A DNA stretch of 63,370 nt, from the NCBI GenBank assembly GCA_020833345.1, contig JAJHQM010000001.1, positions 32,501 to 95,870 on the forward strand, written 5' to 3'. Numbering within the stretch: position 1 is the stretch's first letter; each line of letters starts with the position of its first letter. The DNA is from Ignisphaera sp. Its GTDB lineage: Archaea > Thermoproteota > Thermoprotei_A > Sulfolobales > Ignisphaeraceae. The position numbers and the translations under genes are program-made. Under the pieces are notes generated by a model, which searched no databases, was not told the DNA's origin, and saw nothing but the letters and a program-made list of their open reading frames with translations. Shown in pieces: positions 19,590-29,919 of the stretch.

Positions 19590-20660
19590 TTAAGTTAAGG
19601 GGTCTATGTAAATATAGAAGGGTTTTTCATAAGGATATAGCCTAGCAACAGCCATTCCTTGCCCTACAAGCTTCAAAGCATTTTCAATACCTTTCTTGCT
19701 GAGGTTTAAGTACCTTGAAAGCCTTATCCAATAACCCCTAGAGGGTGAGGATAATGCTATTACAGCGCCGCAGTTTTCAGTAATAGTGTCGGCATAGGGA
19801 TTTAAATCGTCTATGCTTTGTGTCGCCATTGCTAATACTACTCCATATCCACGTCCATATCTAATAAGTATGTTAGTAAAGTCTTCTACAGCACTTTGCG
19901 CTATATACCATAGTTCATCAAGAAGCACCACCTTTGTAATATAACCTAAGTTAAGATTTTGTAGGGTCCTCATAATTCTCTTCAATATGTAGAGTACGAC
20001 AGTAGCTGTAGCTTTGGGGTCTAGCAGAAACAATTTGCTAAGGTCTACAACGACGTTTTTCTGATTGAGTAAGTGAAGAGGTAAGGAGGGTGTATAGCCA
20101 GCGCTAAAAGCACTTAAAGTTGTGTGAATAGATTCTGTCTCTTCTATCCAATAATTTCGAAGAGCGTCGTCTAGAGAGGTAGTGTAGCAGTACTTACATA
20201 ATTTTATGAGCTGTTCACGAATTTGGTCTCTTACATAGGTAGGAAGTTTATAGAGAGAATTCAATGTATTTATGAAGAGATTTACATTATATGCAGTATC
20301 TTCATCAGCTTCATTACAAGAGCATATGGGTATGGGAATTTGTGACACATCCCATATAACAGTGGCATCCGATGTGAAGAGCTTTAATAAGGAGGCGTAC
20401 TCGCCCTTAATGTCAAACACTGTTAATGTTACATTGAATAAGTTTGATAGTCTTGACGCTATGGCCGTAAGCGTGATGGTTTTTCCAGACCCTGTAGGCC
20501 CTACAACAAGTATGTGATGTCTTGGTGAAAGTTTTGCATTCCAATGAATTGCTCTGCCAAAAAATACATCTATGCCTATGTAGACTCCTTCACGAGCATC
20601 TTTTGTTGTTGTGTTTAGTAGCATGTGTGGAATGGTATAGGCTACGGAGTCTAAGAGCAT
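19590..20660 (-). CDS. VirB4/HerA/CedB-type ATPase, motor half
   Basis: FtsK/HerA-superfamily ATPase of 356 residues. Features are VYIGIDVFFGRAIHW before Walker A GPTGSGKT (54-61), HerA-type DIKGEY (83-88), Walker B VVLLDE (244-249), RYGRGYG with possible arginine finger (267-273), and ATQS (279-282). This corresponds to the C-terminal two-thirds of VirB4, TraC or the crenarchaeal DNA-import ATPase CedB. The preceding gene resembles the missing N-terminal domain and ends 10 bases before this ATG. It is last of three genes. No membrane partner such as CedA is next to it. Confidence 0.8.
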   Translation of the reverse strand: MLLDSVAYTIPHMLLNTTTKDAREGVYIGIDVFFGRAIHWNAKLSPRHHILVVGPTGSGKTITLTAIASRLSNLFNVTLTVFDIKGEYASLLKLFTSDATVIWDVSQIPIPICSCNEADEDTAYNVNLFINTLNSLYKLPTYVRDQIREQLIKLCKYCYTTSLDDALRNYWIEETESIHTTLSAFSAGYTPSLPLHLLNQKNVVVDLSKLFLLDPKATATVVLYILKRIMRTLQNLNLGYITKVVLLDELWYIAQSAVEDFTNILIRYGRGYGVVLAMATQSIDDLNPYADTITENCGAVIALSSPSRGYWIRLSRYLNLSKKGIENALKLVGQGMAVARLYPYEKPFYIYIDPLT

Positions 20661-20670
20661 TATTTTAGAT

Positions 20671-21297
20671 TTATACTTGACAAAAATTGCTTAGCTGAGT
20701 AGCTATGCCAGGGTTCTTTACATGGCTTAGCGATATGTTTAACATTTGCTTAGCTAGCCCTGGAATTTTTACTAGGCTTTCTCTGTAGATGTTGAGATCT
20801 CTACACACTATAGCTATGATGCTCGATATTTCGAAAGGTATCATTCCACTCAATATGCGCTTCCTGACCTCCAGCAGTTTCTCTATAGATGCTCTAAGTC
20901 TAGTATTTGCCTTGTCTTGCTCCAGTTCTACTAATCTCATCTGAAGCTTGCCATCTATGTTGGACAAGAACTTGTCAGTGTTTATGGGCTCTATTTTTGA
21001 CAGTGTCATTAAGTGACAGCCTGGCGGGATAATAGTGTTCAGATATCTCTTTAAGTGGCTTAAGAAGTCTAGATACTCTAATTCCTCTAACCTAATGTTG
21101 GCCTCCTCTATAGTGTAAAGAGCTATGAGTTTTGAACTATGGTCATCACTACACTTATAGATGCCTCTGCTCAGTTCTTCGCATAGAGAACGATTTTTCC
21201 ATGAAATAAGCCTTCTAAGGGAGTTGCCTAGGGAGATGCTAATAGCCTTTACCTTTCCTCTAGCTTTAGCTAAAGCATTGGTTGCTATTTTCATCAC
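20671..21297 (-). CDS. VirB4/CedB-like N-terminal domain encoded separately
   Basis: A 208-residue protein with no ATPase motif. The run YLDFLSHLKRYLNTIIPPGCH followed by a long helical stretch (LVELEQDKANTRLRASIEKLLEVRKRILSGMIPFEISSIIAIVCRD) resembles the N-terminal part of VirB4-like ATPases just before the motor. Together with the next gene it would total about 564 residues, near CedB size. The stop is a clean TAA and the next ATG is in another frame. It overlaps the preceding gene by 4 bases (ATGA-type coupling). Confidence 0.6.
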   Translation of the reverse strand: MMKIATNALAKARGKVKAISISLGNSLRRLISWKNRSLCEELSRGIYKCSDDHSSKLIALYTIEEANIRLEELEYLDFLSHLKRYLNTIIPPGCHLMTLSKIEPINTDKFLSNIDGKLQMRLVELEQDKANTRLRASIEKLLEVRKRILSGMIPFEISSIIAIVCRDLNIYRESLVKIPGLAKQMLNISLSHVKNPGIATQLSNFCQV

Positions 21298-23570
21298 CTT
21301 CTGAGCCCAAGCCCAATACTAGCTGAGATTTTTAAAGCGACTTGGTGTGCCAACCAAAGCAGATAAGGTAAATTTATTGGAAACATAAGTACGCTTGCTT
21401 TTACAGGTTCTATCACTCCAATAACCTTACCCCCTCGAATAATATCATCTAAGCTTATCGAAAGGGTTAGAGCTTTTTCAGAACCTGGTGTGAGAATGTA
21501 TGCAGAATTTTGCATTAGAATTGTGAGAGCTAGGTTATGGCACAAGTTCTTTATCAAGGCATGTAACTGCAGATCACTATCGTAAATAATTTTTGCAGAA
21601 GGAATAGCTACACATATATGTGGTAACACAAGTTTGTACAGCACACCCTGCTCCATTAGTGCTTCAGGCACATCATGGTGAAATAGCTCTGCTTCAATAT
21701 TATAATGCATTGGTACTCTGTTTTCACAGTTTCCATCCCTAGATCTGGCAGTGATTGTCATGGTGAGGAAATCACAGTCTCCATCTAACTTTATGCAACC
21801 ACTTTCAAGTGTGAGAATTTGAGATTTGCAGAACACCTCCAGCTTTAATTCAATGTTTTGCAATGTTGGAGGATAGAAGCATATAATTCTCCTTTTTAAG
21901 TCTACAATAGGGTGTACATCAACTTTTACAATGTTTTTTACAATAACTAATGAAGGCTCTATAACTTCTTCTTTAAAGTCTTCTGAAGATGCACTTTCAT
22001 CTACGCACAGAGCTGGGAAACTATCTTTACTTGCAAATAATAATGTTTCTAAGCATTTCTTCAATGCATGCTTTACTTCTTTATTACAAACAATGGGGGT
22101 GTTGTTTATCAGTGTAAGCTTTTCAATGTAGTAAACTTTAGCTGAGGATGCTCTAAATGGAAAGCTGGGCTGTAATTCAATTGAACGCTCCTTCGCGTTT
22201 ACAATGCCATATATTACCATATTTAAGGTAATGGGATATTTTTGTACTGTCTTAATAATGATTTCAGATGTTATAGCGTTGTAACGCTGAAAGGTTATGT
22301 GAATACCTTCGCTTGGAACGATTTTTAATGGGTAACCTGGGATATACAATAATGTTAGCATTGAGGGATAGGGAGCGCACCTACATTTGTGTATTCTTGG
22401 TTGAATTCTTAAGACATCATCTATGGGTAATACAATGATTCTTCCTAGGATATCTACGCATACCACCTCTTTATTACTATTCCCAGTACAGCTTACAAGT
22501 GCTGAAGGGCCCTCGTAGAGCATTTCTATCGTAAATGTGTTTTTGACTTTGTTTAGCGCATATATGCTAAGCTTATTCTTGTTAAGAAGTAAGAGTCTTG
22601 AACTAGCCAAGACAATATCGTGAGCAACTTTCCTCAATTTGAGAATTTTTTCACTTTCAAGATCTAACAACATTACTCCATCTTTTTCTACTATAGCAGC
22701 AATTTCCTCGCATGGCCACACTTTTGTATGAGCTGATGCTTTCAAACTCAAGATTTTTAACTCATCCTTCTCGGCATTATATAGGGCTAAATAATTGCCA
22801 GCTTTTCCAAGGAATACACCATTATATACGTGGACAGGATTTTCAATGTGGTAGCTAGTTTCATACAAAAATTTCCTTTTGTGGTCAAAGCCTGCGAGAT
22901 ACGTTCCTCTATCGGTATTAAAAGCCATTGTATTGTAATACCATGTAGCGTTTATAATATGCTCGAAGTTATTACCTTGAAATTCATATACATCTCCATA
23001 CAAACCATCACTTAAGATAACACTTTTTTCATCTTGGTTGTAGCATATAATTAACTTAATGCTCTTAAACTCTGCGTACTCTACACGCTGGCAATTCATA
23101 ATGTGCTCAATGTGTGAAAGCTCTTTGGCAAAGAGTAAGCGGTTTTTTGTGTCTATAATGTAGCTGAAGAGCCCCTGAGGCATTATGTACTTCACATGCT
23201 CTAAATTGCTATACTCAAATTCTCCTGAGGAACTTACTGCTATTACTCTTGCTAAGGTGGATTGCTGTGAAAGCATTACTATGCTGTTTTCTGTGAAAGG
23301 TAGAATTAGGGCATCACTATTCAGTTCTTGACCTAGTTCAATGTTTTTATTAGGTGCTAAAATACTATACAGTCTAATCTTATTGCCCTGTCTGTAGACA
23401 AAAGGAGCCGGTGAAGTAAGTAGTATAGTTGAATGTAGCATAGTGTGAGGATGAGCTACAATCATGGAGTTGCAAAGTCTTAAGAGTTTTTGACCAAAAT
23501 TGTATAATGATAGCTTTGTATCTCTTGTTAGGATAGGGATGTCAAATTCTATTACATTTAACTTTTTCAT
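21294..23570 (-). CDS. Large beta-propeller-like protein of the ATPase cluster
   Basis: A 758-residue protein I do not recognise. Residues about 50-400 are repeated short beta-strand units (for example IVMLSQQSTLARVIAVSSSGEFEYS, GNYLALYNAEKDELKILSL, DGVMLLDLESEKILKLRK), suggesting a propeller. The remainder looks like beta-sandwich domains. There is no clear signal peptide and only a weak hydrophobic stretch near the C-terminus (LPYLLWLAHQVALKISASIG). It is first of a three-gene unit with the split VirB4-like ATPase, overlapping the second gene by 4 bases. It is probably a structural or DNA/protein-contacting partner, an inference. Confidence 0.6.
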   Translation of the reverse strand: MKKLNVIEFDIPILTRDTKLSLYNFGQKLLRLCNSMIVAHPHTMLHSTILLTSPAPFVYRQGNKIRLYSILAPNKNIELGQELNSDALILPFTENSIVMLSQQSTLARVIAVSSSGEFEYSNLEHVKYIMPQGLFSYIIDTKNRLLFAKELSHIEHIMNCQRVEYAEFKSIKLIICYNQDEKSVILSDGLYGDVYEFQGNNFEHIINATWYYNTMAFNTDRGTYLAGFDHKRKFLYETSYHIENPVHVYNGVFLGKAGNYLALYNAEKDELKILSLKASAHTKVWPCEEIAAIVEKDGVMLLDLESEKILKLRKVAHDIVLASSRLLLLNKNKLSIYALNKVKNTFTIEMLYEGPSALVSCTGNSNKEVVCVDILGRIIVLPIDDVLRIQPRIHKCRCAPYPSMLTLLYIPGYPLKIVPSEGIHITFQRYNAITSEIIIKTVQKYPITLNMVIYGIVNAKERSIELQPSFPFRASSAKVYYIEKLTLINNTPIVCNKEVKHALKKCLETLLFASKDSFPALCVDESASSEDFKEEVIEPSLVIVKNIVKVDVHPIVDLKRRIICFYPPTLQNIELKLEVFCKSQILTLESGCIKLDGDCDFLTMTITARSRDGNCENRVPMHYNIEAELFHHDVPEALMEQGVLYKLVLPHICVAIPSAKIIYDSDLQLHALIKNLCHNLALTILMQNSAYILTPGSEKALTLSISLDDIIRGGKVIGVIEPVKASVLMFPINLPYLLWLAHQVALKISASIGLGLRR

Positions 23571-23714: not shown

Positions 23715-24029
23715 TTGGCATCACGTGAAAAGCTTATGATGATATTAACTGCTTTAAAGGATAGAATAGTATCGCCAAGCGATGTTATAGCATCAACAGG
23801 CTTACCCAGATATGAAGTCTTGGCCTCTTTTCACATTTTAGAAGCACTAAATATAATTGAGGCTGTTTATGTGAGAGGAAATTACAAATTGTACAAGCTT
23901 TCAGAATTAGGTAAGAAGTTATTAGATGCGTTAGCAAATGGTAAAGAGTTTGACTTAGTTGTAAAATCTAGTGAGGGCTTGCAAACCCCCAGCAACACTG
24001 TTCATAACATTGCTGAAGCAACAGCGTAA
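23715..24029 (+). CDS. Winged-helix DNA-binding protein
   Basis: A 104-residue protein: IVSPSDVIASTGLPRYEVLASFHILEALNIIEAVYVRGNYKLYKLSELGKKLLDAL is a winged helix followed by a polar tail of about 30 residues. The start is a TTG, with a TATA-like CTTTATAAC around 23670-23680. It is divergent from the three-gene ATPase cluster and could regulate it. No named family recognised. Confidence 0.68.
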   Translation: MASREKLMMILTALKDRIVSPSDVIASTGLPRYEVLASFHILEALNIIEAVYVRGNYKLYKLSELGKKLLDALANGKEFDLVVKSSEGLQTPSNTVHNIAEATA

Positions 24030-29751: not shown

Positions 29752-29845
29752 GCCGCCGTAGCTCAGCCCGGTAGAGCGCCGGACTCATATGCTATAGTGT
29801 GGTTGGGAGATCCGGTGGTCGCGGGTTCAAGTCCCGCCGGCGGCA
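29752..29845 (+). tRNA. tRNA-Met(CAT) with 20-base intron
   Basis: Acceptor GCCGCCG (29752-29758) pairs with CGGCGGC (29838-29844), discriminator A, no encoded CCA. The anticodon stem CCGGA (29779-29783) pairs with TCCGG (29811-29815). Anticodon CAT is at 29786-29788. The extra 20 bases at 29790-29809 fit an intron at the canonical 37/38 site. It may be elongator Met or, if lysidine-like agmatidine is added, Ile2; the acceptor is not initiator-like. Confidence 0.92.
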
Positions 29846-29919
29846 CTATATCAATTCTAATATTTGATTTCGTTCTAATAAATAATGTATTATTGAATAC
29901 TGATTTCGGTGTTTTAATA

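Follow-up and report, generated by a model that had tools for sequence, protein, structure and literature searches.

Two described systems lie closest to the locus considered here. The Ups system, said to be restricted to the Sulfolobales, is encoded by the operon upsX-upsE-upsF-upsA-upsB. That UpsX favours DNA exchange and leaves pili unaffected has been recognised since 2013, and neither a domain nor a mechanism has been assigned to it: deletion of upsX in Sulfolobus leaves the pili in place and roughly halves UV-induced DNA exchange, and after UV the protein shifts partly to the membrane (PMC3892339). The Ced DNA-import system of Sulfolobus acidocaldarius and Saccharolobus islandicus includes CedB, a VirB4-type ATPase that drives DNA through the CedA channel.

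Programmed frameshifting offers a second set of precedents. In bacterial prfB (+1), a tRNA paired with a wobble codon in the P site shifts to pair one base further downstream, and in bacterial dnaX (−1) a single gene gives long and short products with a common N-terminus. Downstream RNA structure is frequent at such sites, not obligatory, and some known +1 sites work without it. For archaea, reviews of recoding report one experimentally confirmed programmed frameshift, the −1 event in fucA1 of one species, and a merely predicted use of +1 in a haloarchaeal virus (PMC8211752, PMC5009743); interruption of fucA1 is confined to strains of S. solfataricus (PMC8211752).

Here we analyse a stretch of 63,370 nucleotides from the hyperthermophilic archaeon Ignisphaera sp., hereafter the window, which probably carries the upsX-cedB operon of a Ced DNA-import system whose CedB would be made by programmed +1 frameshifting. 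Sequence comparison supports the CedB and UpsX homologies, the gene order, the frame relation, and the conserved site on which this reading is built. The three open reading frames of a preliminary description (758, 208, and 356 aa) were all recovered at the same positions on the minus strand, and the locus is laid out as follows.

21294..23570, minus strand: UpsX-like beta-propeller protein of 758 aa, whose gene opens the operon and overlaps the following start by 4 nt
20671..21297, minus strand: CedB N-domain ORF, frame 0, 208 aa; residues 1-205 would be common to the full-length product
19590..20660, minus strand: CedB motor ORF, 356 aa counted from the first ATG; its frame (+1) is open between about 20690 and 19590
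20680..20688, minus strand: proposed +1 frameshift site AAT-TTT-TGT, from sequence comparison; P-site Phe TTT at 20685-20683 and A-site TGT at 20682-20680; base 20682 would be skipped, giving GTC at 20681-20679 as the next codon
19590..21297, minus strand: predicted full-length CedB, 568 aa, by +1 frameshift after F205
23715..24029, plus strand: divergent winged-helix-type gene of the SSO5209 family, 104 aa (89.8 bits, cut-off 140)

The propeller, N-domain, and motor arrangement is kept in all five Ignisphaeraceae genera sampled and is thus not due to chance. In the window, the N-domain and motor do not form two neatly distinct genes: their open frames share 20 nt, with the motor frame at +1 to that of the N-domain. 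The tail C-Q-V of the 208-aa ORF is confined to the short product. The SSO5209-family gene, which is divergently placed and conserved in the family (a cluster of 15 ORFs across the family loci), is a possible regulator of the operon.

By profile and tree, the window CedB is a divergent homologue of the CedB family. The motor retains whole motifs (Walker A GPTGSGK, DIKGEY, and Walker B VVLLDE, in columns also conserved in homologues), has NF041017 (CedB) as its best family at 123 bits, and, in a midpoint-rooted tree, belongs with 100% support to the CedB clade, away from CedD and HerA. In profile comparison, the N-domain scores 96.8% against the N-terminal portion of fused CedB and 0.1% against CedD, and a Foldseek search with an AF2 model of the 208-aa protein returned R388 TrwK/VirB4 for all of its top 14 matches, the remainder being noise. 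Both identifications in the preliminary description, a VirB4/CedB-like motor with intact motifs and a VirB4-type N-domain, are thereby upheld. The joined product gives a single unbroken match to NF041017 (145.9 bits, E 1.7e-42, profile positions 117-588). Neither it nor the motor reaches the NCBIfam CedB equivalog cut-off of 700 bits, which only 2 of 41 relatives in the order pass and which therefore covers Sulfolobaceae-like members only.

With the CedB of the described Ced system, the window protein shares its two-domain plan, its clade, and the co-occurrence of CedA1, CedA, and CedD. It differs in that its coding sequence spans two frames joined at a conserved slip site, that it stands directly behind an UpsX-like gene, and that, like the split relatives scanned, it has no clear N-terminal membrane helix by simple hydropathy. 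The scan flagged only residues 147-165 of the window N-domain (1.66), away from the N-terminus, whereas two Sulfolobaceae-type CedBs have an N-terminal hydrophobic segment by the same scan. TedB and bacterial VirB4 (TrwK) belong to the same ATPase superfamily, and the modelled N-domain matches TrwK structurally, but the sequence groups with CedB and no TedA/TedC-like genes lie alongside.

The locus had earlier been placed outside known Ced and read as possibly a new DNA-translocation or defence machine, an idea to which we assign very little probability. In its favour are the lack of an adjoining cedA or pilin gene, a propeller partner not described for Ced, and hits of PADLOC models for mad8 and HerA. 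Yet the supposed new machine consists of halves of CedB, falls within the CedB clade, and has a homologue of UpsX beside it (see below). Moreover, the search for cedA elsewhere in the genome, proposed in the same description, found CedA as well as CedA1 (above its NCBIfam cut-off) and CedD, which makes the Ced gene set complete; cedB also lies apart from cedA in two Sulfolobaceae-type genomes examined. A defence role finds no support: the PADLOC matches on the locus, partial only, were mostly to the shared HerA-type ATPase core, with mad8 besides, and when a full-length match and partner genes of anti-phage HerA or Mads systems were sought, no partner genes were recognised in the neighbourhood. 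A 19-bit match between the N-domain and Csx1 was put down to chance.

The 758-aa protein is predicted to consist almost wholly of beta structure in regular blades, and tandem beta-propellers are its best matches in the PDB; its weak model (pLDDT 65, TM ~0.2) supports the fold class only, and to that extent the propeller-like partner first described is confirmed. By profile comparison through intermediates in families f2 and f4, it is homologous to Sulfolobales UpsX. The f2/f4 propellers match UpsX at 99.3% (E 7.7e-21, local hhalign) and the Ignisphaeraceae propellers match those of f2/f4 at 98.2% (E 4.6e-14); the direct match of the Ignisphaera propeller to UpsX is weak (49%, local), and twelve comparisons with unrelated families all gave 1% or less. 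It is an UpsX profile from thirty sequences that links to the propeller, a two-sequence profile giving no link. Similar size, a lack of predicted membrane spans in most members, and the connection to DNA exchange are further likenesses.

An UpsX-like gene lies directly upstream of CedB in the Ignisphaeraceae, in f4, and in part of f2, and the order in f2/f4 is pilus ATPase, pilus platform, UpsX, CedB. The f2/f4 platform protein F matches UpsF at 98.2%, UpsF being the only platform protein compared. The pilus ATPase was considered as UpsE and rejected, as it falls outside the UpsE clade in a tree. In contrast to the ups operon, pilus genes do not adjoin X in Ignisphaera (no E/F genes lie beside it in the window), where its partner is instead CedB, directly downstream. 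Ahead of X in the window operon, the UV-inducible promoter hexamer of Sulfolobus was looked for and not found.

The split of CedB is the unexpected feature of the locus. The motor frame is exactly +1 to the N-domain, with overlapping open frames, in 20/20 split loci, and in 20/20 a conserved AAT-TTT-YGN or TTT-TTT-CGN site marks the end of the N-domain, although these genomes are related and do not amount to 20 independent trials. In a 21st genome, kept aside and examined afterwards, the site reads AAT-TTT-CGG and the +1 frame stays open as far as Walker A. At the site, Phe is TTT in all 20 split loci and Arg is CGN in 16/16, against a local CGN share among Arg codons of 4-43%. Control gene pairs differed from this pattern, with offsets of 12/7/1 (X-N), 8/5/2 (a-b), 12/3 (b-c), and 6/6/3 (c-d), pair b-c being also skewed to a single offset (12/15). 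Alignment of the joined product to fused CedBs continues across the junction. Many of the genomes are metagenome-assembled, which would invite an explanation by sequencing or assembly error or by a decaying pseudogene; this has next to no probability and is refuted by conservation, as the same +1 relation recurs in 20 genomes, one of them a single contig of 1,875,953 bp, with ATPase motifs intact and the motor frame free of stops.

The frame switch is most probably, on these comparisons, a programmed +1 frameshift and not a boundary between two proteins. Of the split VirB4 first described, the separately encoded N-domain and motor stand; the two proteins probably give way to overlapping frames and a +1 slip site. 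Were CedB truly split, two proteins with separate, overlapping, or coupled starts would assemble non-covalently, and the site would be a relic of the mutation that broke the gene into two frames. We consider this unlikely. Most genomes do have some ATG/GTG/TTG before Walker A, within the first 30 codons after the site in most motor ORFs, so that independent or coupled initiation may occur in them, and these operons often contain coupled genes that overlap, as most X-N pairs do. A relic, however, should lose its +1 lock through non-triplet indels, whereas the distance from slip site to Walker A (57-76 codons) varies solely by multiples of three. In the single-contig genome G010, the stretch from slip site to Walker A contains no ATG/GTG/TTG, the first canonical start of locus L050 comes 8 codons ahead of Walker A, and the slip codons are kept even in fused genes. 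A Shine-Dalgarno-like core is missing from 17/20 motor starts and present at 13/15 and 12/15 starts of two downstream operon genes.

The T run at the site also raises slippage by RNA polymerase in place of the ribosome. The six Ts in f4 and f2 sites would suit it, but most Ignisphaeraceae sites have only four (AATTTTCG), which is short for transcriptional slippage, and the conserved feature takes in the codon register and the following YG; we hold this reading to be quite improbable. A general four-base Phe codon (TTTT read as F over the whole gene) fails at a second in-frame TTTT downstream.

We infer that programmed +1 frameshifting proceeds as follows. A ribosome on the N-domain frame would arrive at AAT-TTT-YGN, where tRNA-Phe (anticodon GAA) on the wobble codon UUU could slip one base forward onto UUC or UUU while the A site fills slowly, being occupied by a rare Arg CGN, Cys UGU, or the stop UGA. 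The A-site codon is UGU in the window, neither a rare Arg codon nor a stop, and UGA in two genomes. A slipped ribosome would go on in the +1 frame into the motor and yield full-length CedB; those that do not slip would stop 0-9 codons on and leave the VirB4-like N-domain alone, so that cedB may give two products in some ratio, the short one perhaps with a role of its own. The UpsX-related propeller would be a probable cytoplasmic scaffold or adaptor in contact with the motor, serving DNA import in this species. As proposed, the slip resembles prfB in its P-site wobble re-pairing and in the UGA of two genomes, and dnaX in long and short products sharing an N-terminus. Unlike those genes, cedB has no noticed Shine-Dalgarno-like stimulator upstream of the slip site, and folding of 14 loci gave no consistent signal of a downstream RNA structure. 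Like fucA1 of Saccharolobus solfataricus, it is an archaeal chromosomal gene in two frames with a slippery site and a rare codon; in contrast to that −1 case, its proposed shift would be +1, and the site is conserved over many genera.

Fused CedBs of f2 (14 genomes, 8 genera) also keep TTT-TTT-CGN. Both Phe codons are TTT in 14/14 and Arg is CGN in 14/14, and the two Phe columns are among only three codon-identical columns in 54 invariant ones, synonymous sites elsewhere being scrambled; this comparison points to selection acting on the nucleotides of the site in addition to the protein. Slipping at the f2 site would end translation 2-15 codons later. TTT-TTT-CGN, or AAT-TTT-YGN in the Ignisphaeraceae, is likely to be an old programmed +1 signal that sets the ratio of N-domain-only to full-length CedB in at least three crenarchaeal families, with frame roles swapped between lineages: the short form would be frame 0 in the Ignisphaeraceae and f4, and the long form in f2.

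Gene calling reports Ignisphaera CedB as two genes, and surveys of Ced distribution may consequently miss or misread it. If true, our reading would make this the first +1 frameshift known to be conserved in a chromosomal gene of archaea, and its site, kept over about 15 genera that probably include a cultivated type species, would make a strong model for archaeal recoding. A homologue of UpsX is found outside the Sulfolobales, and its place directly before CedB points to UpsX as a part of the import motor. The VirB4 N-domain without its motor would then, together with UpsX, be a working part of the import machine.

The three minus-strand ORFs at 19590-23570, encoding a 758-residue propeller-like protein (X), a 208-residue N-domain and a 356-residue ATPase motor, were confirmed at these coordinates with the ATPase motifs intact. 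CedB is the top NCBIfam model for the motor (1.4e-35, profile positions 250-589 of 590), and the 208-residue protein gives a weak, collinear match to the same model (117-184); joined, the two window products yield a single continuous CedB match. In comparisons using a profile made from 11 relatives, the N-domain scores 96.8% against fused CedB and 0.1% against CedD. The VirB4-type N-domain proposed in the preliminary description was borne out by an AF2 model, all of whose top 14 PDB matches are TrwK/VirB4 of the R388 secretion system. Among 52 motor domains placed in a tree, the window motor groups with CedB, and the midpoint root separates this clade from CedD and HerA. The suggestion that the locus falls outside the known Ced system was not supported by a search for cedA elsewhere in the same genome (G000; 1.3 Mb, 102 contigs, 93.6% completeness), which encodes CedA1 (101.3 bits, above cut-off), CedA (6e-34) and CedD (6.8e-69). 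Given the CedB clade membership, the N-domain matches and the presence of these three proteins, this locus carries the cedB portion of a Ced system, with its remaining genes dispersed. Because it scores far under the equivalog cut-off, as do nearly all non-Sulfolobaceae members, the window CedB is filed as a divergent homologue.

Around the dispersed genes, an Lhr-type helicase gene (~960 residues) adjoins cedA1-cedA in several Ignisphaera genomes (L156:12602-15502 on G000:C18, and loci L158, L159, L164 and L165), close to a ribosomal-protein cluster; a repair link to DNA import is possible. A lone type II/IV secretion ATPase (L156:5997-7457; G000:C18:22516-23151) lies ~9 kb from cedA without an adjacent platform gene; its best NCBIfam model is BasE (238.7 bits), and it groups with UpsE/BasE in the tree.

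The central observation concerns the junction between the N-domain and the motor, compared across 20 split loci, 16 from the window's own family (f1, here Ignisphaeraceae; family labels follow the search output) and four from f4. In all 20, the motor frame is +1 relative to the N-domain frame, the two open frames overlap by 11-92 nt, and the +1 frame is open from the proposed slip site through Walker A, a distance of 57-76 codons that differs only by whole codons. At the end of the N-domain, Asn-Phe is conserved in f1 and Phe-Phe in f4 and G012, with a tail of variable length (0-9 codons) after it; the slip-site codons are AAT-TTT then CGN, TGT or TGA at 15 loci and TTT-TTT-CGN at five. Joined split products align through the junction with the in-frame fused CedBs of f2. 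In G010, a single contig of 1,875,953 bp, no ATG, GTG or TTG occurs between slip site and Walker A, and G013, outside the 20-locus set with a contig that stops within the motor, reads AAT-TTT-CGG with the +1 frame open into GPSGVGKT. The cedB locus of G012 (L044; 11 kb contig), counted here with f1, groups with f4 rather than its assigned family, through transfer or binning error, and retains an UpsF-like gene end upstream.

Frame offsets between other adjacent genes are mixed (12/7/1 for X and the N-domain, 8/5/2 for the pair a-b and 6/6/3 for the pair c-d), and one control pair is skewed toward one offset, 12 to 3. A Shine-Dalgarno-like core is missing from 17 of 20 motor ORFs and present for two downstream operon genes in 13/15 and 12/15; since fewer than half of the X and N-domain ORFs carry one either, this contrast is supporting evidence only.

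Codon usage points to selection on the site itself. The slip-site Phe codon is TTT at all 20 split loci, and the A-site Arg is encoded by CGN in 16 of 16 cases, against a local CGN share of Arg codons of 4-43%. Furthermore, f2 CedB is fused in frame 0 and keeps TTT-TTT-CG[A/T/G] at the equivalent position in 14 genomes of eight genera, with the site lost in two f2 genera. Among these 14 fused genes, only three of 54 invariant residues are codon-identical, two of them the slip-site Phe codons; the slip-site Arg is CGN in 14/14, and AGA/AGG predominate in the remaining invariant Arg columns. A +1 slip here would terminate 2-15 codons on, giving an N-domain-only product. UUU is decoded by tRNA-Phe (GAA) through a wobble pair, and after a forward shift of one base this tRNA can pair again, with UUC or UUU. 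Most genomes have a rare Arg codon in the A site; in two, including that of the window, the codon is Cys UGU, and in two others it is a stop, an arrangement that can be likened to prfB. We infer the slippage, its efficiency and a role for the short form.

Neither Pfam nor NCBIfam gave a match for X, whose named relatives come from crenarchaeal MAGs, one of them an Ignisphaera. The structural model consists almost wholly of beta strands, with its best part near residues 90-390; its Foldseek matches are tandem beta-propellers, at low TM-scores. An ORF of 720-830 residues lies directly upstream of the N-domain in every complete split locus examined. The f2 and f4 counterparts, weak UpsX matches in a first search, match a profile of 30 Sulfolobaceae UpsX sequences over most of their length (99.3%, E 7.7e-21) and the Ignisphaeraceae proteins match them in turn (98.2%, E 4.6e-14), with 12/12 control comparisons to unrelated families at <=1%. 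Homology with UpsX is thus drawn via intermediates, as the direct comparison reaches only 49%. The f2 and f4 operons run small one-TM protein, T2SSE ATPase, platform protein, X, CedB; the platform protein resembles UpsF (98.2%), and the ATPase, considered as UpsE, falls outside the UpsE clade. UpsX is cytoplasmic and in part membrane-bound following UV; it is not needed for pili or aggregation. Without it, the increase in DNA exchange that UV induces falls to about half (PMC3892339).

Other loci touch on these families. In f2 genus g16 and in f8 (L224, L228, L229, L231, L232), distantly HerA/CedB-like ATPases of ~600 residues form a separate long branch near UpsX-like genes, in several cases also near pilus ATPase and platform genes, possibly a second, related system. 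One Ignisphaera genome holds a second cluster of pilus ATPase, platform and short UpsX-like (389 residues) genes ~10 kb from its cedB locus (L225:3662-7902; G007:C6). In the window, an SSO5209-family winged-helix-type gene (23715-24029) is divergent from the upsX-cedB operon, a position kept across the family, and a tRNA gene at 29752-29846, backed by an Rfam match (64.2 bits) and with an unusual anticodon call (atgc), is probably an intron-containing tRNA, mis-resolved.

According to reviews, -1 frameshifting is confirmed for archaeal fucA1 (PMC8211752) and suspected for Mg-chelatase genes, and +1 frameshifting is predicted in virus HSTV-2 (PMC8211752, PMC5009743). Neither a cedB frameshift nor an UpsX-CedB operon is reported in the searched passages of openly accessible Ced and Ups articles. 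On sequence comparison, the locus is a known system in a new variant form, with a probable recoding event of a kind that would be new among archaea; the conservation evidence is comparative and strong, and the frameshift product itself is predicted. The simplest account would be that both CedB products matter, and that which frame encodes which differs among lineages; the short VirB4-type N-domain could fill positions in the ring or cap them, or could have a regulatory effect on the motor.
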